NCBI GenBank assembly: GCA_947629645.1
Contig: CANREV010000006.1
Span: 38,853-102,852 of the forward strand
Direction of reading: 5' to 3'
Origin: an uncultured Acetatifactor sp.
Lineage (GTDB): Bacteria; Bacillota; Clostridia; Lachnospirales; Lachnospiraceae
DNA length: 64,000 bases
Both the position numbers and the translations under genes were made by a program. The notes beneath the pieces were generated by a model. It worked only from the letters and a program-made list of their open reading frames with translations. It did not search any database and had not been told where the DNA came from. This document shows, piece by piece, positions 731 through 13,674 of the stretch (positions within the stretch are counted from its first letter, which is position 1; each line of letters begins with the position of its first letter).

Positions 731-818
731 AAGCGCCTTTGCCGCGATGAGAGGGCAGGCCCTGCGTGAAACCTGTGTCTGGATATATAAAATTTACGAA
801 AAAAGGAGAGGATTTTTT

Positions 819-2879
819 ATGGGAACAAAATTTATACCCGCCACATTGGATTATGAATTGAGCCCCTACACTGGTCTGACCAGGGAAAGCTGGCTGGAAG
901 CCGGAAAGTACATGCTGGAAGGAATTTTTCAAAATATCCGGAGTTTTCAGGATCCGGTGATTATGCCGAGAAAGGAGACGCAGATCACCTATCCGCATCT
1001 CAACGCTTCCGAAGAGGTCCAAAAGACCCAGCGCAGGGCGGAAGTGTTTGAGGGGCTGACCAGAACCTTTTTTATCGCGGCGCCTGTTTTGCAGAATATT
1101 CCCGATCTTGAGATCTGTGGCTATCCCATAGCGGAATATTATAAAAATCAGGTATTGAGAGTCTGCACAAAGACCGATCCGCTGTATGTGGGAACCTACG
1201 AGGACCAGCAGGAGATCACCGGGCATGAGGATCCCTTTCGCGCGTTTCAGCAGACCGTTGAAACCTGCGCGCTGGTGATCTGTCTCTGGGTCAGCAGAGC
1301 GCAGATCTGGGATACCTACACGCGGGAGGAGAAAGATACCATTGCAGAGTTGCTGCAGGGGTATGCCCATGAAAACACGGTGCCTCAGAACTGGCGTCTG
1401 TTCAATATGCTGGATATGGCGTTCTTAAACATGGAAGGATACAAAATCGACCGCGATATTATGCGGGACCATGGTCAGGCTATCCTGAATTATTATGCGG
1501 GGGACGGCTGGTATCGGGACGGGCATTCCTTTGACTATTATTCCTGCTGGGCGTTTAATGTTTACGCCCCGATCTGGAACCTTTGGTATGGGTATGAGAA
1601 CGAGCCGTATCTGGCCCGGAAATTTGAGGAACAGTCCAATAAATTGATGGAGACTTACGGGGACTTTTTTGACAGGGACGGCTGGACGAATATGTGGGGC
1701 CGCAGCAATATCTACCGCAATGCTGCCACCAGCGCCTTTGACGGCAACATGATGCTGCGAAACGGCATCTGCAACGCGGGCCTTGCAAGGCGGATTTCAT
1801 CCGGTTCGCTGATGCAGTTCTTAGGGAGGGAAGATTTTCTGTATCAAGGCGTGCCCACGCTGGGATTTTACGGGCAGTTTTCTCCTCTGGTGCAGGGGTA
1901 TTCCTGCGCGGAATCGCCCTTTTGGCTTGGCAAGGCTTTTCTGTGCCTGCATCTTCCCGCGGATCATCCTTTCTGGACGGAAAAGGAAAATAACGGCACC
2001 TGGGAGCGTTTGGGAGAACGGGAAGTGAAGGTTACCACGCTCAATGGTCCGGCGCTCAGTTTTTCCAATCATCAGGCCAATGGAGAGACTATTTTGCGCA
2101 CGGGAAAGGTGGTTAAACGCCCCGGCGATGAGCATGGGATGTGGAATTATTCCAAACTTTGCTACAATACGAAATATCCCTGGGAATCCGCTCCATCGCA
2201 GGACGTGGAGGCCCAGCAGTACGTTTTGAAAGACGGAACGACAAACCGCTGTTCCAAAGCCAATGTGACGTTTTGGTACGGAGAAAGAGACGGCGTACTG
2301 TACCGCAGACAGTTTTTTGACTATAGTCTGGAAAAGGAATCTCACTGGATACAGGCGGTCAATCTCGCGGACTTTGCGGTGCCCTGCGGGATCCTTCGGG
2401 TGGATAAGCTGAGGATTCACAGAGCGCCTCTGTCTCTGACGCTTGGGGCTTACGGTTTTCCCGACAACGGCACCTGTATCAGCGAAAAAGCGCAGGGTAG
2501 CGCGAGAGCCATGATTTTAAAGGGGAAGGACGCCATGGGAAGAGAAAAGCAGCTGGCTATGACCATCTACGATGGATGGAAAGATTTAAAGCTGCTTCAC
2601 AGTACGGGCACCAACCCCGACTCCGAAAAATCCATTGTACTGTATGCCGCCACAGAGCGCCAAAAGCAGTACGGCTACGAGCCTTATGTTCTGATCTCCC
2701 AGGTTATCACAAAGGAAAGCCATGAGGATTTTTCGGAGGAAGAGTTGTTCCCTGTCAAAACGGTGCGTTACACCGATCCTGAAAACTGCGGCGGATACGG
2801 TCCCGTTATCCTTGAGATGAAGGATGGCGGCAAAAAGGAAATCTCCTTTGAGGGGATGGAGGGGCAACTGATGTTATAA
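819..2879 (+). CDS. DUF2264 family protein (probable pectin/carbohydrate-associated)
   Basis: ORF 747-2879; ATG at 819 preceded by AAAGGAGAGG; protein FIPATLDYELSPYTGLTRESWLEAGKYMLEGIFQ typical of DUF2264. Confidence 0.8.
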   Translation: MGTKFIPATLDYELSPYTGLTRESWLEAGKYMLEGIFQNIRSFQDPVIMPRKETQITYPHLNASEEVQKTQRRAEVFEGLTRTFFIAAPVLQNIPDLEICGYPIAEYYKNQVLRVCTKTDPLYVGTYEDQQEITGHEDPFRAFQQTVETCALVICLWVSRAQIWDTYTREEKDTIAELLQGYAHENTVPQNWRLFNMLDMAFLNMEGYKIDRDIMRDHGQAILNYYAGDGWYRDGHSFDYYSCWAFNVYAPIWNLWYGYENEPYLARKFEEQSNKLMETYGDFFDRDGWTNMWGRSNIYRNAATSAFDGNMMLRNGICNAGLARRISSGSLMQFLGREDFLYQGVPTLGFYGQFSPLVQGYSCAESPFWLGKAFLCLHLPADHPFWTEKENNGTWERLGEREVKVTTLNGPALSFSNHQANGETILRTGKVVKRPGDEHGMWNYSKLCYNTKYPWESAPSQDVEAQQYVLKDGTTNRCSKANVTFWYGERDGVLYRRQFFDYSLEKESHWIQAVNLADFAVPCGILRVDKLRIHRAPLSLTLGAYGFPDNGTCISEKAQGSARAMILKGKDAMGREKQLAMTIYDGWKDLKLLHSTGTNPDSEKSIVLYAATERQKQYGYEPYVLISQVITKESHEDFSEEELFPVKTVRYTDPENCGGYGPVILEMKDGGKKEISFEGMEGQLML

Positions 2880-2881
2880 AG

Positions 2882-5434
2882 TCATTCCACTACAAATTTA
2901 ACAGTCAGTTTTTCGGGAATGACGCCATCGTCAACGAAGAAATCCACTTCGTGCTCCCCGGCTTGGAAAGCTTCAGGGCGCCAGCAGAACTGTCTCTTTT
3001 GGGCATCGAAGGATGCTCCCGAAGGAAGTCCTTCGGCAAAGAGATACAGATCTGTCTCGGCGCCTTTTACGCTGTGATGCACAGCGTTCTGCTGCCCGTA
3101 TATGATACCGCTGCAGGCTTCCTCGGACACCTCAAAAGCGGGGCAGCGCACCTGCAGATTCAGCGTACAGGTCTGACCGATTTTTAAATGCTGTGTCCCC
3201 ATGGGACAGATATACGGGCGGTATACGGTCAGCGGCAGGGGATAGGAATCCGTATCCCTTTGGAAGGCGTAACCTGTCTCTTTACAGGGCGCGGTAGGGT
3301 AGGAATAAAGGCTGTCCGCGGGCGTGCCGGGGGCGGGAGCGAGGATCTCTACCTGTTGAACCGGCAGGGGCCGGGTCTGATGCAATCCTGATACCGTGGT
3401 GGTGAAGTAGGGCTGTTCCGGCACGTTTTCCGCATTGGTATGCCTGCGGAAATGGTGGGTGACGGCGGCAATGGGTGCAAGGGAGGGATCGCAGTAAGCG
3501 TCCAGCCCGTCTATCCGCACATCGGTCACATCATCCAGAACGCAGACGTGCCTGCCATCGGGTATCTTGCAGCTGATTTTAACATTCCGCAGTGTCAGAT
3601 CTTTCACATGTTTTGCAAATATGCCGTAGGCGGGCAGGATCCCCCAGTTGCTGGGTTCGGGGTACACTTCGGGAAGTTCCGGCACATTGTAGGGGTCATC
3701 CCGCCAGCTTTTTGTCCTGGGATCCCACTCTGCCCGGGGAAGAAGCCCTTCGTGTTTTAAAAAGAAGGTGTTGACCAGCCAGGGCAGACTTTGCACATGT
3801 TCTTTGGCGTGAAACTGGGAAAATTTCCAGTCCGTGTTTAACTGCCGCTGCTCCACCGCATGTTCCATGGTAAGTCCGCCCCGATATTGCACCTCCACGT
3901 TTTCCACAGTGATGTTTTTCAAAGGAGAATCCGTAAGCCCCATCAGTAAGATAGGATATCTGGGATCTGCATTGGTGACTACTACGTTTCGGATGCAGAC
4001 GTTTTCTATTTTTGCTAAATCCCTGTATCCCACTGCATTAGCGTAAAGAGGCCTGTCTTTCTCGGGAATATTCTCTGTCAGGTTGACCGGATTGCAGGTT
4101 ACGGGAGATTCGGGATCTATGATCTCAAAGGAAGAGCAGCCGTCCACGGTGACAGTCTTTGTCCGGTTATAGTGGGGAGTATAGCGCCTTGGGGGGAATT
4201 TTTCATAGACGTCTGTCCCGGGCAGAACCCACTCCGGCTGGTCAAGACGTACATCGTCCGCCGTGGGGAGAGTGTCTGTTTTGGCCCGTCCTGTCACCGG
4301 AAATCTGCCTCTGTCTCCGGCGCGCAGAAAGAAAGGGGAGCTGGATATATTGTCCATCACACAGTCTTCAAACAGAATATCGGTGAGAGGAGACCCGTCT
4401 ACCGCTTCCAGTGCAAAGCCTCTGGACCGATCGAATCTGACTCTGCGGATGGTTACCAGATGGTAGCCGCAGGTGGATTCGGTTCCCAGTTTCACCCGTC
4501 CGGTGGGGCCGCAGCGATCCTCCGCCACCAGCTTGTCCCTTGTGTATTCTCCGGCGTAGACGCTGCCTGCATCGTAGCCGCTGACAGTGCAGTCCTCGAT
4601 CAACACGTTTTGGACAGGCAGATAGCGTCCGGCGCCAAAGGAGGCTTTCAGACACAAACCGTCATCCGTCAGGGAGTTACAGACAGTATGGCGGACTGTC
4701 ACATCCTGGCAGCAGTCGATATCGAACGCATCTCTGGTGGTGTCGATCAAAATGTGATCTGCGTAAAGATTGACGCATCCCTCGGCGATCACTGCGAAAT
4801 GTCCTCCGATAGTGAAGGAAAAATCCTGAAGCACCACATTTTTGCAACGCACAAGGGCGATACCTTTATTCCCGAACCATTCCCCGCGATGCCCGGAAAG
4901 ATTTCTGGAGAGCGGGTTGGGAGGATCGCCGCCCTGAAGGACATATTCCAGTATTCCGGTCTCCTCATTCAGCCGGCCTCCGGTGAACAGGCCTTTTCCG
5001 TAAATCATGATATTTTCCAGATCGGCGCCATAAACCAGACTGTTGGCAAAGTAAGAATGGCCGTGATCCTGCAGGCCTGCGTAAAGGTTTACCTCCGGTT
5101 CTTTGTAGTTGCCGCCCTCTCCCTGCTGTGCTGCCCAGGGCTGGTTGATATCCGTCCTGGCGGCGGCGATAACGGCGCCCTCCTCCAGAAAGAGATTGAC
5201 ATTGCTTTGTAACAGGATGGTATAAGTGAAGAAAGTTCCCGCAGGTACCACCACCGTGCCGCCCCCCGCAGCCGCGGCCGCTTCGATGGCGCTGTTGATG
5301 GACTGGGTGTTGACAACTGGTTTTTCTGTTTCGGCTGCGCCGAAATCCCTGATGTTGAAATAATGTTCCTTTTGCAATGCCTCCGGTCGTACAGATGCGC
5401 CGGAAGCCTCTAAAACAGGCTGTTTTCCTGACAT
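2882..5434 (-). CDS. Glycoside hydrolase family 28 (polygalacturonase-like) with C-terminal Ig-like domain
   Basis: FNIRDFGAAETEKPVVNTQSINSAIEAAAAAGGGTVVVPAGTF, parallel beta-helix type sequence; start placed at MSGKQPV (5434), preceded by AGGAGGGCC on the minus strand. Confidence 0.85.
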   Translation of the reverse strand: MSGKQPVLEASGASVRPEALQKEHYFNIRDFGAAETEKPVVNTQSINSAIEAAAAAGGGTVVVPAGTFFTYTILLQSNVNLFLEEGAVIAAARTDINQPWAAQQGEGGNYKEPEVNLYAGLQDHGHSYFANSLVYGADLENIMIYGKGLFTGGRLNEETGILEYVLQGGDPPNPLSRNLSGHRGEWFGNKGIALVRCKNVVLQDFSFTIGGHFAVIAEGCVNLYADHILIDTTRDAFDIDCCQDVTVRHTVCNSLTDDGLCLKASFGAGRYLPVQNVLIEDCTVSGYDAGSVYAGEYTRDKLVAEDRCGPTGRVKLGTESTCGYHLVTIRRVRFDRSRGFALEAVDGSPLTDILFEDCVMDNISSSPFFLRAGDRGRFPVTGRAKTDTLPTADDVRLDQPEWVLPGTDVYEKFPPRRYTPHYNRTKTVTVDGCSSFEIIDPESPVTCNPVNLTENIPEKDRPLYANAVGYRDLAKIENVCIRNVVVTNADPRYPILLMGLTDSPLKNITVENVEVQYRGGLTMEHAVEQRQLNTDWKFSQFHAKEHVQSLPWLVNTFFLKHEGLLPRAEWDPRTKSWRDDPYNVPELPEVYPEPSNWGILPAYGIFAKHVKDLTLRNVKISCKIPDGRHVCVLDDVTDVRIDGLDAYCDPSLAPIAAVTHHFRRHTNAENVPEQPYFTTTVSGLHQTRPLPVQQVEILAPAPGTPADSLYSYPTAPCKETGYAFQRDTDSYPLPLTVYRPYICPMGTQHLKIGQTCTLNLQVRCPAFEVSEEACSGIIYGQQNAVHHSVKGAETDLYLFAEGLPSGASFDAQKRQFCWRPEAFQAGEHEVDFFVDDGVIPEKLTVKFVVE

Positions 5435-5595: not shown

Positions 5596-5624
5596 TTGAC
5601 AATTCTTCTGTGGGAATGTATGAT
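5596..5624 (+). promoter_or_regulatory. Promoter of the fatty-acid synthesis operon
   Basis: TTGACA (5596-5601), 17-bp spacer, TATGAT (5619-5624). Confidence 0.75.
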
Positions 5625-5632
5625 ACATATTG

Positions 5633-5696
5633 TTTGAATATCAAATTATTTGAAAATCAAATAGATTGAAACTAGAAAATTTTGAAATTCAAATAA
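5633..5696 (+). promoter_or_regulatory. Array of FabT-like operators, TTTGA-N3-TCAAA, at 16-bp spacing
   Basis: TTTGAATATCAAA (5633-5645), TTTGAAAATCAAA (5649-5661), degenerate ATTGAAACTAGAA (5665-5677), TTTGAAATTCAAA (5681-5693). Confidence 0.7.
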
Positions 5697-5748: not shown

Positions 5749-5982
5749 ATGTTGGAGAAGTTGAAAGAAGTGATCGAGGAGAAGTTGAACGCGGAGGGCG
5801 CAGTGATTACGGAACAGACTAGTTTCAAGGATGACCTGAACGCGGATTCTCTGGATCTGTTTGATCTGATTATGGCGCTGGAAGATGAGTTTAACATTGA
5901 GATCCCTTCCGAGGATCTGGAACAGATGGTCACCGTTGGCGATGTGGTGAAGTATTTGAAAGATAAAGGTGTAGAGGCTTAA
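5749..5982 (+). CDS. acpP: Acyl carrier protein
   Basis: DDLNADSLDLFDLIMALEDEFNIEIPSEDLEQM phosphopantetheine-site context. Confidence 0.95.
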   Translation: MLEKLKEVIEEKLNAEGAVITEQTSFKDDLNADSLDLFDLIMALEDEFNIEIPSEDLEQMVTVGDVVKYLKDKGVEA

Positions 5983-6926: not shown

Positions 6927-7862
6927 ATGAGTAAGACAGCATTTATATTCCCCGGACAGGGGGCCCAGTACGCAGGTATGGGCAAAGAGTTTTATGACAC
7001 ATATCCCACCGCGAAGCGGGTATTTGAACTGGCTTCTGAGGTTACGGGCATAGATATGGCAGAGCTGTGTTTTACGCAAAACGATCGTCTGGACATTACC
7101 GAATATACGCAGATCGCCATGCTGACCTGCGAGGTGGCTATCCTGAAGGTGTTGGAGGAGCAGGGCGTCAGGGCGGATGTCTGCGCGGGTCTGAGTCTGG
7201 GAGAATATGGCGCTCTGGCAGCGGCTAGGGTGATGGAGCCGGAAGATCTGTTTCGGCTGATTCGCAGCAGAGGGATCTTTATGCAGGAAGCCTGTCCGGA
7301 AGGCGGCGCTATGACTGCCGTGCTTGGTCTGGAAGCGGAAACCATCCGGAAAATTTGTGAGGAGACGGAAGGAATCGTTTCGATTGCCAACGATAACTGT
7401 CCGGGGCAGATTGTGATCACCGGCGAGGCCCAAGCTGTGCAGGCCGCTTCCGATAAACTGGCGGAGGCGGGCGCCAAGAGATGTGTGCCTTTGAAGGTCA
7501 GCGGACCGTTTCACTCGGAGTTATTAAAAGGAGCAGGAGAAAAACTGGCGCGGGAACTGGCCAAAGTAAAGGTCAGGGATCCGGCAATCCCCTATTTTTG
7601 CAATGTGGACGCTGCGCCTGTGACGGACGCTTCCAGAGTAAAGGACCTTCTGGCAAAACAGGTCTCTGGCACGGTCAGATGGCGGGAGATCATGCTGGGT
7701 ATGTTACAAGACGGCGTAGACACTTTTATCGAAATCGGACCGGGCAGGACGCTGACAGGTTTTCTGCGCAAGACTGACAGGAATGTGAAAGCGATGAATG
7801 TGGAAACGGTGGCGGATCTTGAAAAGGTGCTGGAAGTCTGGAACGGAGGGAAGCCATGCTGA
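6927..7862 (+). CDS. fabD: Malonyl-CoA:ACP transacylase
   Basis: AFIFPGQGAQYAGMGKEFYD...GLSLGEYGAL. Confidence 0.95.
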   Translation: MSKTAFIFPGQGAQYAGMGKEFYDTYPTAKRVFELASEVTGIDMAELCFTQNDRLDITEYTQIAMLTCEVAILKVLEEQGVRADVCAGLSLGEYGALAAARVMEPEDLFRLIRSRGIFMQEACPEGGAMTAVLGLEAETIRKICEETEGIVSIANDNCPGQIVITGEAQAVQAASDKLAEAGAKRCVPLKVSGPFHSELLKGAGEKLARELAKVKVRDPAIPYFCNVDAAPVTDASRVKDLLAKQVSGTVRWREIMLGMLQDGVDTFIEIGPGRTLTGFLRKTDRNVKAMNVETVADLEKVLEVWNGGKPC

Positions 7863-8596
7863 CGGAAAAGATTGCACTTGTAACCGGCGCAAGCCGGGGG
7901 ATTGGACGTGCCATCGCCTGCGCTCTGGCGAGGGAAGGGGCGTTCGTTTTAGTGAATTATAATGGCTCCAGGGATAAGGCGTTTGAGGTGGTGGCGCAGA
8001 TCGAGGAAGAAGGCGGTCATGGGGAAGCTGTGGAATGCGATGTGTCAGATTTTGAAGCCTGCGGGAAGATGATCGAGGGGGCTGTGGCAAAGTATGCTCA
8101 TATTGACATTCTGGTGAATAATGCAGGCGTGACCAGGGACGGCCTGATTATGCGGATGTCCGAGGCGGATTACGATCAGGTCTTAAATACCAATCTGAAA
8201 GGCGCCTTTAACACGATCCGTCATCTTTCCAGGCAGCTTTTGAAGCAAAGGAGCGGAAAGATCATCAACATCTCATCTGTTTCCGGCATTCTGGGAAATG
8301 CGGGACAGGCGAACTATTCAGCGTCTAAGGCGGGGCTGATTGGCCTGACGAAAAGCGTGGCAAGAGAACTGGCAGGCAGAGGAATCTGTGTCAATGCAGT
8401 GGCGCCCGGGTTTGTGGACACGGAAATGACCCGGGCAATGCCCCAAAAGGTCAGGGAAGAAGCAGTAAAAACCATTCCCCTTGGCAGAATGGGCAGTCCT
8501 GAGGATATTGCCCGCATGGTGGCTTTCCTGGCGGGAGACGGGGGCGACTATGTTACCGGGCAGGTATTTTGTGTCGATGGCGGACTATGTATTTGA
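7856..8596 (+). CDS. fabG: 3-oxoacyl-ACP reductase
   Basis: SDR fold: VTGASRGIGRAIA, NNAGVTRDGLIMRM, YSASKAGLIGLTKS; overlaps fabD end. Confidence 0.95.
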   Translation: MLTEKIALVTGASRGIGRAIACALAREGAFVLVNYNGSRDKAFEVVAQIEEEGGHGEAVECDVSDFEACGKMIEGAVAKYAHIDILVNNAGVTRDGLIMRMSEADYDQVLNTNLKGAFNTIRHLSRQLLKQRSGKIINISSVSGILGNAGQANYSASKAGLIGLTKSVARELAGRGICVNAVAPGFVDTEMTRAMPQKVREEAVKTIPLGRMGSPEDIARMVAFLAGDGGDYVTGQVFCVDGGLCI

Positions 8597-8656
8597 GATG
8601 AAGGAGAAGGATGATCTATATTTTTTAAGCGTGAACGCTTCGGAATGGAGATTACT

Positions 8657-9892
8657 ATGAAAAAAAGAGTTGTGGTAACGGGTATGGGAGCCATCACTCC
8701 CATCGGTAACAGCGTGGAAAGTTTTTGGAATTCTCTAAAGCAGGGAAAGAGAGGGTTTGCTCCTATCACCCGCTTTGACACCACGGAATACAAATGTAAA
8801 CTGGCGGCGGAAGTGAAAGAGTTTGAACCGGAAAAATATATGGATAAGAAAGCGGCGCGCCGTATGGAACTCTTCTGTCAGTATGCTGTTGCGGCCGCAA
8901 AGGAAGCTTTGGAGGACGCGGGCATCGACATGGAGCGGGAAGACCCCTACAGAGCGGGCTGCAGCGTAGGCAGCGGCGTAGGCAGCATGCAGGCCATGGA
9001 GCGGGAGTGCGGCAGACTGATCGAGAGAGGTCCCTCCAAGGTCGGCCCCCTGCTGGTACCTTTGATGATCTCCAATATGGCGGCAGGCAATGTCAGCATT
9101 GCTTTCGGCCTGAAGGGCAAAAGCATCGATGTGGTGACAGCCTGCGCTACGGGCACAAATTCCATTGGAGAGGCTTTCCGCACCATTCAGTACGGGGATG
9201 CGGATGTGATGGTGGCGGGAGGTACGGAAGGAGCTGTCTGTCCCCTGAGCATTGCCGGATTTACTTCTCTGACGGCGCTTTCTTCCTGCGAGGATCCTGA
9301 AAGGTGTTCCATTCCCTTTGACAAGGACAGAAGCGGATTTGTCATGGGCGAGGGGGCCGGTATTGTGGTGCTGGAAGAGTTAGAGCACGCTTTAAAACGC
9401 GGCGCAAAGATTTATGCGGAGGTGCTGGGGTACGGTTGTTCCTCGGACGCCTATCACATTACCTCTCCCGCGGAGGACGGCGCCGGGGCGGCGAGAGCCA
9501 TGCTGAACGCCATGGCGGACGGCAATGTGGCGCTGGAGGAACTGACCTATATCAACGCCCACGGTACCAGCACCCATCACAATGACCTCTTTGAGACGAG
9601 AGCTATTAAGCTGGCTTTCGGCGCTCATGCAAAGGAGCTGAAAATCAACTCCACGAAATCTATGATAGGGCATCTTTTGGGCGCTGCGGGGGCGGTGGAG
9701 TTCATTGCCTGTGTCAAAGAACTTCAGGAAGGCTTCATTCATTGTACGGCGGGCTTAAGAGAAACGGAAGAAGAGATGGATCTGAATTATTGCATGAGCG
9801 CCTATCAGGAGGAGGTTCCTTATGCGCTTAGCAATTCGCTGGGATTTGGCGGTCACAATGCAAGTATATTGATCGGAAAGTATCGCGGATAA
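8657..9892 (+). CDS. fabF: 3-oxoacyl-ACP synthase II
   Basis: [23 protein letters not shown]...[14 protein letters not shown]; start taken at ATG 8657 (GGAG 7 nt upstream) rather than ORF start 8645. Confidence 0.95.
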
Positions 9893-9915: not shown

Positions 9916-10344
9916 ATGTCAGTTTTTACAACGAAGGAAATCATGGAGATCATACCGCACAGATATCCTTTCCTGCTGATCGACACTATTGAGGAGCTGG
10001 AACCGGGAATACGCGCTGTGGGGAGAAAATGCGTCAGCGCAAACGAGCCTTTTTTTCAGGGCCACTTTCCCCAAAATCCTGTGCTGCCCGGCGTGCTCAT
10101 CATAGAAGCGCTGGCGCAGGTAGGAGCCGTGGCCATGCTTTCGCAGCCGGAATTTCAGGGAAAGACGGCGTATTTTGCCGGTATCAATAAGGCGAGATTC
10201 CGTCAGAAAGTGTTTCCCGGAGATGTGCTGGAATTGGAAACTTCTATTATAAAGGTGAAAGGGCCGGTGGGAGCAGGTCAGGCTGTGGCAAGGGTCAATG
10301 GGAAGACGGCGGCACAGGCGGAGCTGACTTTCGCGATCAGTTAA
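9916..10344 (+). CDS. fabZ: 3-hydroxyacyl-ACP dehydratase
   Basis: [23 protein letters not shown]...[23 protein letters not shown]. Confidence 0.95.
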
Positions 10345-10356
10345 GGAGGTGTGGCG

Positions 10357-12156
10357 ATGAAGCTGCGCAGGGAAAAACAGAGAGAATTTTTTGGGGAAAA
10401 ATTCAGTAAGCTGTATCATCATGATGTTGGTGTGAGCGAGGTATCTAAGGAGAGCGCCAAAGAGGATTCCCGGAAGGATGAAAGCAAAACAAAGGATGCA
10501 GATACAAAAGCCGAAGACGTCTATCTGATCAAATGTCCGAAATGCGGAAAGATGGTGGACAGAGCCAGAGTGGTAAAGAAAAAGTATGTCTGCTATGAAT
10601 GCGGAGGGTATTTCAGGGTAAAGGCGCCTAACCGCATCAGGATGGTAGCCGATCCCCATAGTTTTGAGCCTTGGTTTACGGATATGCCTGTCCATAATCC
10701 GCTGGCTTATGAGGGCTATGAAGAGAAACTGGCCCAGGCGAGGGAAAAGACGGGACTGGACGAGGCGGTTACGGTGGGGCGCTGTAAAGTTTTTGGGGAA
10801 GAGATTGTGCTTGGAATCTGCGATGCCAGATTTATGATGGCCAGCATGGGCCGCACGGTGGGTGAGAAGATCGCATCTGCCATCGAACGCGCCGCAGAGC
10901 TGAAACTGCCCGTATTTTTGTTCTGCTGTTCCGGCGGGGCTCGCATGCAGGAAGGAATCGTGTCTCTGATGCAGATGGCGAAGACCGCGGCAGCGGTTCA
11001 AAAACTGGGGGAAGCGGGGTGTCTGTATTGCACGATTCTGACGGATCCTACTACCGGAGGTGTGACGGCAAGCTTTGCCATGCTGGGAGATGTGGTGATG
11101 GCGGAACCGAAAGCGCTGATTGGTTTTGCGGGTCCCAGGGTCATTAAGCAGACCATCGGACAGGAATTGCCGGAGGGCTTTCAGACGGCGGAGTTTTTGC
11201 AGGAGCATGGCTTCGTGGACGGTATCGTGCAGCGCGATCGTTTAAAGAAGACGATTTATTTTCTGATAAAGGCGCATCAATGCAAAGAGGGAGAGTACGC
11301 TGACTTTGCAACAGGACGGGAATTCCATTTCGTTCTCAATGAGATCCTCAAAGAGCAGGTGTGGAAAGTACGGCCCAAGGATGCGTGGGAAAAAGTCAGG
11401 GATGCGAGGCGTATTAAGAGAGCTTCGGCCTGTGATTACATGGAATATATCTTTGATTACTTTGTGGAAGCTCATGGGGACAGGACATTTCGGGACGACC
11501 CCGCTATCATAGGCGGGATCGCTTTCCTGGACGGACAGCCTGTGACCGTTATTGCGGACCACAAAGGCAAGGATATGAAGGAGTGTCAGGAGCGAAACTA
11601 CGGTATGCCCATGCCGGAAGGATACCGCAAGGCGCTGCGCCTTATGAAACAGGCGGAGAAATTTAACAGGCCCATTATCAGCTTTATCAATACTTCAGGC
11701 GCGTTCCCGGGTATTGAGGCGGAAGAGAGGGGCCAGGGGGAAGCGATTGCGCGCAATCTGTTGGAGATGTCCGCATTGAAAGTACCTGTGCTCTGTATCT
11801 TTATCGGGGAGGGCGGCAGCGGCGGAGCCCTTGCCACCGGAGTGGGAAACGAGGTGTGGATGCTGGAAAACGCTATTTATTCCATTCTTTCACCGGAAGG
11901 GTTTGCATCCATTTTGTGGAAAGATTCCGGCAAGGCAAAGGAGGCCAGTGAGATCATGCGCATCACGGCTCAGGATTTAAAACAGCTGCATATTATTGAG
12001 AAGATTATCCCTGAGTTTGGCGGCGCGGACGATTCTACGGCGGAAGCCATAGCCGGTTACTTAAAGGAACAGATCAAAGATTTTTTGAAGAAGTATCACG
12101 GTAAGAGCGGAGCGCAAATCGCTGCGGAAAGATATGAGCGTTTCCGCAGATTCTAG
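10357..12156 (+). CDS. accDA: Fused acetyl-CoA carboxylase carboxyltransferase, beta (AccD) plus alpha (AccA)
   Basis: N-half has the C4 zinc finger CPKCG...CYECGGYF and [18 protein letters not shown]-half [31 protein letters not shown]...[12 protein letters not shown] is AccA; one uninterrupted frame. AAGGAGGT (10343-10350) fits ATG 10357 better than GTG 10351. Confidence 0.93.
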
Positions 12157-12177: not shown

Positions 12178-13143
12178 ATGTCAATAAAAATAATCGGTAC
12201 GGGGAGCGCCCTGCCCGTAAAGCAGGTTGCCAACGGGGAACTGACAAAACTGGTGGATACTTCCGATGAGTGGATCCGGGAGAGGACAGGCATACGCTCC
12301 AGACATATTTCCACGGGAGAGACAGTCGCATCGCTTGCAACGCAGGCCTGCCAAAAGGCATTGCAAAATGCGGGAAAAGAGGCTGCGGAAGTGGAACTTT
12401 TGATGGTGGCCACCTGTTCTCCCGAACTGGCGCTCCCGTGTACGGCCTGTCAGGTTCAGGATAAACTGGGAGCCGTGCACGCAGTCTCCTTCGACTTAAA
12501 CGCCGCCTGCGCGGGTTTTCTTTTTGCACTGCATACGGCGTATGCTTATATCGCATCAGGCATCTATCGGAATGCGCTGATCGCGGGGGCGGAAGTCCTC
12601 TCCAAGATCATTGACTGGGCGGACAGAAGTACCTGTATCCTGTTTGGGGACGGCGCTGGCGCCGTTATGGTGGAACGGTGCGATGAAGGGGGAATTTTAG
12701 GCTTCGTACAATGCTCGGACGGCAGCAGGGGCCGTGTCTTATCCTGCGGCAGCCGCCCTCTTAATAATCCTTATGCATCGCAAACGGACTTTGAGACTTA
12801 TGTGCAGATGGACGGCAGGGAAGTTTTTTCTTTTGCGGTCCGCCAGGTTCCGGCCAGCATAGAGGAAGTTTTGGAGAAGACCGGCCTGACGGTGGAAGAT
12901 GTGGATCTGTTTGTGCTGCATCAGGCAAACAGGCGCATTATAGATGGAATCTGCAAACGCCTGAAAGCGGACCCCGACAGGTTCCCTGTTAATCTGGACA
13001 GAGTGGGCAATATGTCTTCGGCGGCTATTCCCGTTCTTTTGGATGAACTGAATGCGCAGGGCAGGCTGTCGGCAGGCATGACGCTGGTGCTTTCCGGTTT
13101 TGGCGCCGGGCTTACTTACGGCGCCTGCGTAATAAAATGGTAA
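12178..13143 (+). CDS. fabH: 3-oxoacyl-ACP synthase III
   Basis: IIGTGSALPVKQVANGELTKLVDTSDEWIRERTGIRSRH...DLNAACAGF. Confidence 0.95.
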   Translation: MSIKIIGTGSALPVKQVANGELTKLVDTSDEWIRERTGIRSRHISTGETVASLATQACQKALQNAGKEAAEVELLMVATCSPELALPCTACQVQDKLGAVHAVSFDLNAACAGFLFALHTAYAYIASGIYRNALIAGAEVLSKIIDWADRSTCILFGDGAGAVMVERCDEGGILGFVQCSDGSRGRVLSCGSRPLNNPYASQTDFETYVQMDGREVFSFAVRQVPASIEEVLEKTGLTVEDVDLFVLHQANRRIIDGICKRLKADPDRFPVNLDRVGNMSSAAIPVLLDELNAQGRLSAGMTLVLSGFGAGLTYGACVIKW

Positions 13144-13200: not shown

Positions 13201-13674
13201 GTGAAAATGGCACAGCAAACGAGGCGCTCCATCAACGAGCTGCTGGTAAATCTATTTAATCATGTGATGGATCTGGAGGGAAAAGCGGTCATCACAGAGC
13301 AGTTTCGGGATATTACCAACAATGACATGCATATCATTGAGGCGATCGGGGTTGAGGAACCCAGAAATATGTCGGCCATTGCGCACAAGATGGCGGTTAC
13401 GGTCAGTACACTGACTACGAATATGAACGGCCTGGAGAAAAAAGGCTATATCCGCCGCGAGCGCAGTCAGGAAGACAAGCGCGTAGTTTATGTGATCCTC
13501 ACCGAAAAAGGGAAAAAAGCTTTTTACCACCATCGAGATTTCCACAAAAAGATGATCAAAGCTATCATAAAGAATCTGAGTGAGGAGGAGATGGAGCTGT
13601 TGTATCGCTGCCTTCAGAATCTGAATCGCTTCTTTGAGTCGGAAAGCAAAGACAAAGAGGAAGAACGTGTCTAA
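13201..13674 (+). CDS. MarR-family regulator, FabT-like
   Basis: MarR winged helix (MSAIAHKMAVTVSTLTTNMNGLEKKGYIRRERSQEDKRVVYVILTEKG); last gene of the fab operon. GTG 13201 or ATG 13207 start. Confidence 0.85.
   Translation: MKMAQQTRRSINELLVNLFNHVMDLEGKAVITEQFRDITNNDMHIIEAIGVEEPRNMSAIAHKMAVTVSTLTTNMNGLEKKGYIRRERSQEDKRVVYVILTEKGKKAFYHHRDFHKKMIKAIIKNLSEEEMELLYRCLQNLNRFFESESKDKEEERV

Follow-up and report, generated by a model that had tools for sequence, protein, structure and literature searches.

The fab operon in the window (the whole 64-kb stretch of DNA that was analysed) is preceded by a phased array of FabT-like palindromic boxes. Judging from the sequence, we put at roughly three in four the probability that this array is a multi-dimer operator through which the FabT-like MarR repressor encoded in the acpP-to-fabT operon controls that operon, binding cooperatively on alternating faces of the DNA. 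The pattern TTTGANNNTCAAA occurs exactly three times in the 64-kb window, with no fourth exact match. Box 1 (TTTGAATATCAAA) lies at 5633-5645, box 2 (TTTGAAAATCAAA) at 5649-5661, 16 bp from box 1, and box 4 (TTTGAAATTCAAA) at 5681-5693, 32 bp from box 2; all three are on the plus strand and match at 10/10 positions. The three perfect TTTGA-N3-TCAAA palindromes described in an earlier, sequence-only reading of this DNA are therefore confirmed by the exact-match count, and also by shuffling: the mean expected in the window is 0.12 exact boxes and 0/100 dinucleotide shuffles reach three. That reading had further proposed a 4 x 16-bp array. Three exact boxes do lie in this register, while the remaining position (box 3, ATTGAAACTAGAA, 5665-5677, plus strand) holds a degenerate, FabT-like copy that is in register and matches at 7/10. 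A match of at least 7/10 at one given position has a chance of 0.7% when estimated from related promoters outside the register, and of 2% when the local sequence is modelled as a first-order Markov chain. The 5665 register is thus likely, but not certain, to be a genuine fourth box; an imperfect inner box within a 16-bp array is also seen in some relatives (e.g. G264 and G079). A chance origin of the array or of its 16-bp period is ruled out by the shuffles together with reversed-sequence and anagram-motif controls.

The promoter assigned by the sequence-only reading is also upheld. It consists of a -35 element, TTGACA (5596-5601, plus strand), and a -10 element, TATGAT (5619-5624, plus strand), separated by a 17-bp spacer; the whole (5596-5624) is an 11/12 sigma-70 match directly upstream of the boxes, with a predicted +1 near 5631. 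Related array promoters have a conserved TTGACA in the same position. All three exact palindromes are found between TTGACA-17-TATGAT and acpP, and the array spans about +2 to +62 relative to the predicted start, ending 55 bp upstream of acpP. Another perfect 13-bp palindrome, ATGTA-TGA-TACAT (5616-5628), overlaps the window -10 and differs from the FabT-like box. On the other side of the promoter the operon adjoins a divergent pectate-lyase-like/beta-helix gene (about 2882-5433, minus strand), which has its own 11/12 promoter at 5583-5555 on the minus strand, and a DUF2264 gene (747-2879, plus strand) lies nearby.

The operon has the gene order acpP-fabK-fabD-fabG-fabF-fabZ-accDA-fabH-fabT, all on the plus strand. 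The first gene, acpP (acyl carrier protein, 5749-5982), is followed by fabK (enoyl-ACP reductase II, TIGR03151, 5986-6909), fabD (malonyl transferase, 6927-7862), fabG (ketoacyl-ACP reductase, 7856-8596), fabF (ketoacyl-ACP synthase II, 8645-9892) and fabZ (dehydratase, 9916-10344). The carboxyltransferase gene accDA (10351-12156) is one ORF that matches both subunits, accD and accA being fused as a single 601-aa frame. After fabH (ketoacyl-ACP synthase III, 12178-13143) comes the gene of the MarR regulator (13201-13674), the predicted binder of the array, which closes the fab cluster, as had been read from the sequence; a cardiolipin synthase gene follows 53 bp after it.

The regulator is a protein of 157 aa with a MarR winged-helix fold (Pfam MarR 47.4 bits against a cut-off of 24.6). 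Its best NCBIfam family is FabT (NF050133), at 140 bits. As this score falls below the equivalog cut-off of 200 bits, the protein is named 'FabT-like' and not formally FabT. The best PDB sequence match is the S. pneumoniae FabT-DNA complex (6jbx, E 2e-29), and the same entry is the top fold match of the AlphaFold2 model (pLDDT 91), with a TM score of 0.91 to the target and 40% identity. In 30 relatives from box-bearing loci T67, D92, R94, H44, H111 and H115 are invariant and G69/T70/L71/T72 nearly so, the window protein having S at 69; both recognition helix and wing are conserved, the recognition helix strongly so. The match to 6jbx in both sequence and fold, the conservation of box and recognition helix together, and the co-occurrence with FabT described below all support the assignment of the array to a FabT-type regulator.

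Within its own 3.15-Mb genome the array is the sole recognisable operator of this kind. There are nine exact boxes, three in the array and the other six all inside coding sequences, and no other 16-bp pair is found in this genome with up to 3/20 mismatches. Single boxes with one mismatch number 166, against 129 in the control, which is near chance. Further FabT targets were sought here and rejected on these grounds.

The sequence-only reading had suggested a scan of related genomes for conservation of the spacing. When this was run, the 16-bp distance proved to be both conserved and sharp. A search of 299 Lachnospiraceae genomes for box pairs spaced anywhere between 13 and 43 bp gives matches in 20 of them, mostly at 16 bp and mostly in fab promoters. 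A set of 121 fabK-upstream regions was then examined, 120 from 120 family genomes chosen regardless of boxes plus the window, with a pair counted where both boxes match at 8/10 or better. By spacing there are 106 pairs at 16 bp, 0 at 15, 6 at 17, 31 at 32 and 8 at 48, compared with about 0-1 pairs per spacing for reversed sequence and anagram motifs. A good box is present in 109 promoters; 76 of these have a second (at least 8/10) at exactly 16 bp, the next commonest neighbour registers being 32 bp (25) and 29 bp (6), with no other above 6. Chains of three or more boxes at 16 bp are found in 36/109 promoters, against 0-3 for other registers. The 3-bp linkers between 16-bp-spaced boxes are biased to (A/C)TA and are asymmetric relative to transcription, the third base being A in 40/46 cases in related promoters.

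The register extends beyond the family. A GTDB-wide pattern scan returns at least 56 close pairs at 16 bp, which is the peak among the matches listed, and at least 52 of these stand beside fab genes. Among the matches listed, 16-bp pairs come from Enterococcus, Vagococcus, Globicatella, Desemzia, Marinilactibacillus, Abiotrophia, Clostridium, Haloimpatiens, Roseburia and Acholeplasmataceae, and arrays of 3, 4 and 5 exact boxes are present (L099, L100, L136, L123). The boxes do make a regular repeat, such as a recent tandem duplication might leave, with a spacing that would have no function. However, the N3 and linker bases differ between the box copies of the window array, and the same register is found again in promoters of numerous Lachnospiraceae genera and outside their order, which makes duplication the least probable of the explanations considered.

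Each 13-bp palindrome would bind one dimer. With 10.5 bp per helical turn, 16 bp corresponds to about 1.5 turns, or 189 degrees, so that adjacent dimers would face almost opposite sides of the helix, and dimers two boxes apart (32 bp) would share a face. The strong preference for 16 bp, with 15 and 17 rare, is the fixed spacing expected of an opposite-face operator, the face itself following from the helical repeat. MarR dimer footprints typically exceed 20 bp, and dimers on opposite faces could fill neighbouring sites whose footprints would otherwise overlap. Other spacings that would also place dimers on opposite faces (26 and 37 bp) are nearly absent, as are 15 and 17 bp, which points to a constraint on distance as well as on face and so argues for coupling between adjacent dimers and not for phasing alone. 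Adjacent dimers would probably aid each other's binding, either by contact or via the shape of the DNA. Cooperative binding on alternating faces, which we infer from sequence geometry, is thus well motivated by the conserved, sharp phasing.

The same counts bear on two simpler explanations. If dimers bound each box separately, without contact between neighbours, additional copies would do no more than make it likelier that some box is occupied. Such independent sites need no fixed distance, in conflict with the 106:0:6 distribution at 16, 15 and 17 bp, and opposite-face phasing by itself would permit about 26 or 37 bp. We consider this unlikely, although three observations are in its favour: the second and subsequent boxes of relatives are frequently weaker than the first, arrays whose box 1 abuts the -10 have neither more nor fewer boxes than the others, and streptococci use sites 29 bp apart. 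A little less likely again is that 16 bp is merely the shortest clash-free spacing, selected so as to place many sites near the start, with no favourable contact between dimers. A 13-bp box with a 3-bp linker is indeed tight packing, and the (A/C)TA linker bias could reflect shared flanking contacts, yet packing of this sort should tolerate 17-20 bp, and these spacings are rare.

Arrays are anchored to the promoter. In 40 of the 76 promoters with a 16-bp pair the first box starts precisely at the final base of the -10 (TATACTTTGA), and across the 76 further boxes are mostly found at +16, +32 and +48 from the first. In some related promoters a further module, at -45/-29, covers the -35. The window differs from most relatives in that box 1 begins 9 bp beyond the -10; a comparable arrangement is seen in G150, in which an array with three exact boxes begins 10 bp after the -10. 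It was considered that arrays not touching the -10 might carry more boxes, but there is no difference in box number. In the stacked arrays of relatives strength falls from box 1 through box 2 to box 3, a gradient consistent with binding that nucleates at box 1 and spreads downstream.

If filled, the boxes of the window would cover the start site and the early transcribed region, about +2 to +62. Boxes 1 and 2 would keep polymerase off the start region, while boxes 3 and 4 would stabilise the complex and hinder early elongation. The roadblock to transcription proposed in the sequence-only reading is only part of the picture: the overlap of box 1 with the -10 in most relatives makes polymerase occlusion the commoner geometry, and downstream boxes would extend that occlusion. 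Acyl-ACP, a product of the operon, would tighten binding, and the circuit would be autoregulatory since fabT lies inside the operon. Repression, its acyl-ACP corepressor and autoregulation are carried over here from FabT in Lactobacillales, for which acyl-ACP is the corepressor (PMC9083066, PMC13046290).

The location of the array in the transcribed leader also raises the question of whether the palindromes work at the RNA level, forming hairpins as an element of the 5' UTR. The folding z-score is -1.7, but 10/200 shuffles fold equally well, stems of 5 AU-rich base pairs with 3-nt loops are weak, and there is no Rfam match. Relatives, moreover, have boxes over or upstream of the -10, which are not wholly transcribed, and array presence follows FabT. 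An RNA element is accordingly very improbable, and binding by a FabT-like repressor is the preferred reading.

The link with FabT is seen across genomes. In the first set 16-bp pairs are found in 75/109 FabT-positive genomes and 1/12 FabT-negative genomes (p=7e-5). None of 20 added FabT-negative genomes has such a pair (0/20), giving a combined 75/109 against 1/32 (p=5e-12), a contrast that is partly phylogenetic because the 20 added genomes have a more distant fabK group. The operator and the FabT gene thus co-occur.

FabT, as known from studies of lactic acid bacteria, represses weakly and binds its operators weakly (PMC13046290), and in Lactobacillales repression is 2- to 5-fold (PMC13046290). 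The published pneumococcal FabT site, ANTTTGACTGTNAAATT, has the same core as the window boxes (PMC8406281). The operators of S. pneumoniae, E. faecalis and L. lactis are similarly TTTGA-type palindromes in fab promoters with a MarR repressor; in the accessible literature they are described as palindromes with no mention of phased arrays, unlike the window, where four boxes at a 16-bp pitch lie downstream of the -10. The position of fabT also differs, being last in the window cluster and first in E. faecalis (PMC13046290). Enterococcal fabT promoters do resemble the window in our own scan, in which the fabT promoter is the sole site of an exact 16-bp pair in 14 Lactobacillales genomes, mostly enterococci. 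In EMSAs E. faecalis FabT bound the fabT and fabI/fabO promoters and not those of fabK or acpB, and fabT promoter fragments were trapped in the well (PMC9083066). This trapping would fit multi-dimer complexes but proves nothing, and the binding to fabI/fabO, given that in the enterococci examined the exact pair is present only at fabT, means that a tandem pair may not be essential. In Streptococcus fabT promoters (L033, L039, L096, L134) two exact boxes are 29 bp apart, around -35 and -10. Streptococcal FabT has a similar recognition helix, so the 16-bp packing is not needed for FabT control as such.

Other MarR-family regulators (MepR, MexR and others) likewise place winged-helix dimers on palindromes; no description of phased arrays of three to five MarR-family boxes was found in the literature searched, of which coverage was partial. 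A precedent for opposite faces exists in IdeR/DtxR, where two repressor dimers bind one operator cooperatively from opposite sides (PMC8464063). These belong to another protein family, and their two interleaved dimers on 19 bp contrast with an open-ended 16-bp array. FabT operators are already known, and the phased 16-bp array is apparently new within the literature searched. Neither the phase-locked array of two to five boxes, nor the sharp 16-bp rule, nor its use in Lachnospiraceae was found there, though tandem sites may have been mentioned earlier in work on L. lactis or S. pneumoniae FabT. Likewise no earlier description was found in that literature of FabT control in gut Lachnospiraceae, to which the present sequences would extend it. 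If the proposed operator is correct, exact spacing of multiple sites would explain how weak dimers control an essential operon, FabT site prediction should look for arrays and not single boxes, and a simple, testable cooperativity rule would be available for the large MarR family.

A broader proposal, which we regard as tentative and rather less probable than not, is that FabT-like MarR repressors assemble on fab promoters into a phase-locked, open-ended nucleoprotein row. The weak binding of single sites would then be turned into a graded switch, tuned by acyl-ACP, whose strength depends on how many 16-bp units are present (two to five across genera). The same syntax might serve other FabT-like MarR proteins, such as a Vibrio regulator beside a cation efflux gene. 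In Vibrio the gene for the FabT-like MarR protein comes after one for a CDF-type cation efflux protein (L032, L050), and the promoter boxes (L032:5545-5589, L050:7796-7840; also L045, L063, L090, L118, L138) lie 32-33 bp apart with a degenerate middle copy, making three units of ~16 bp.

Some further arrangements were observed in the wider scan. Boxes 21 bp apart, two full turns and hence on the same face, are found in some fab promoters (L067, L091, L127, L060), and may represent a second packing mode. TTTGA-type palindromes also recur every 21 bp in a Nostoc contig (L042:3636-3795), away from any fab gene; this is probably a tandem repeat of an unrelated kind. In Acholeplasmataceae MAGs 2-3 boxes at a 16-bp pitch (L057:3218-3262; L107:5232-5260) lie directly upstream of a DegV/FakB-like gene, which is followed by genes resembling accB and accC; this arrangement suggests a FabT-like regulon in these organisms.
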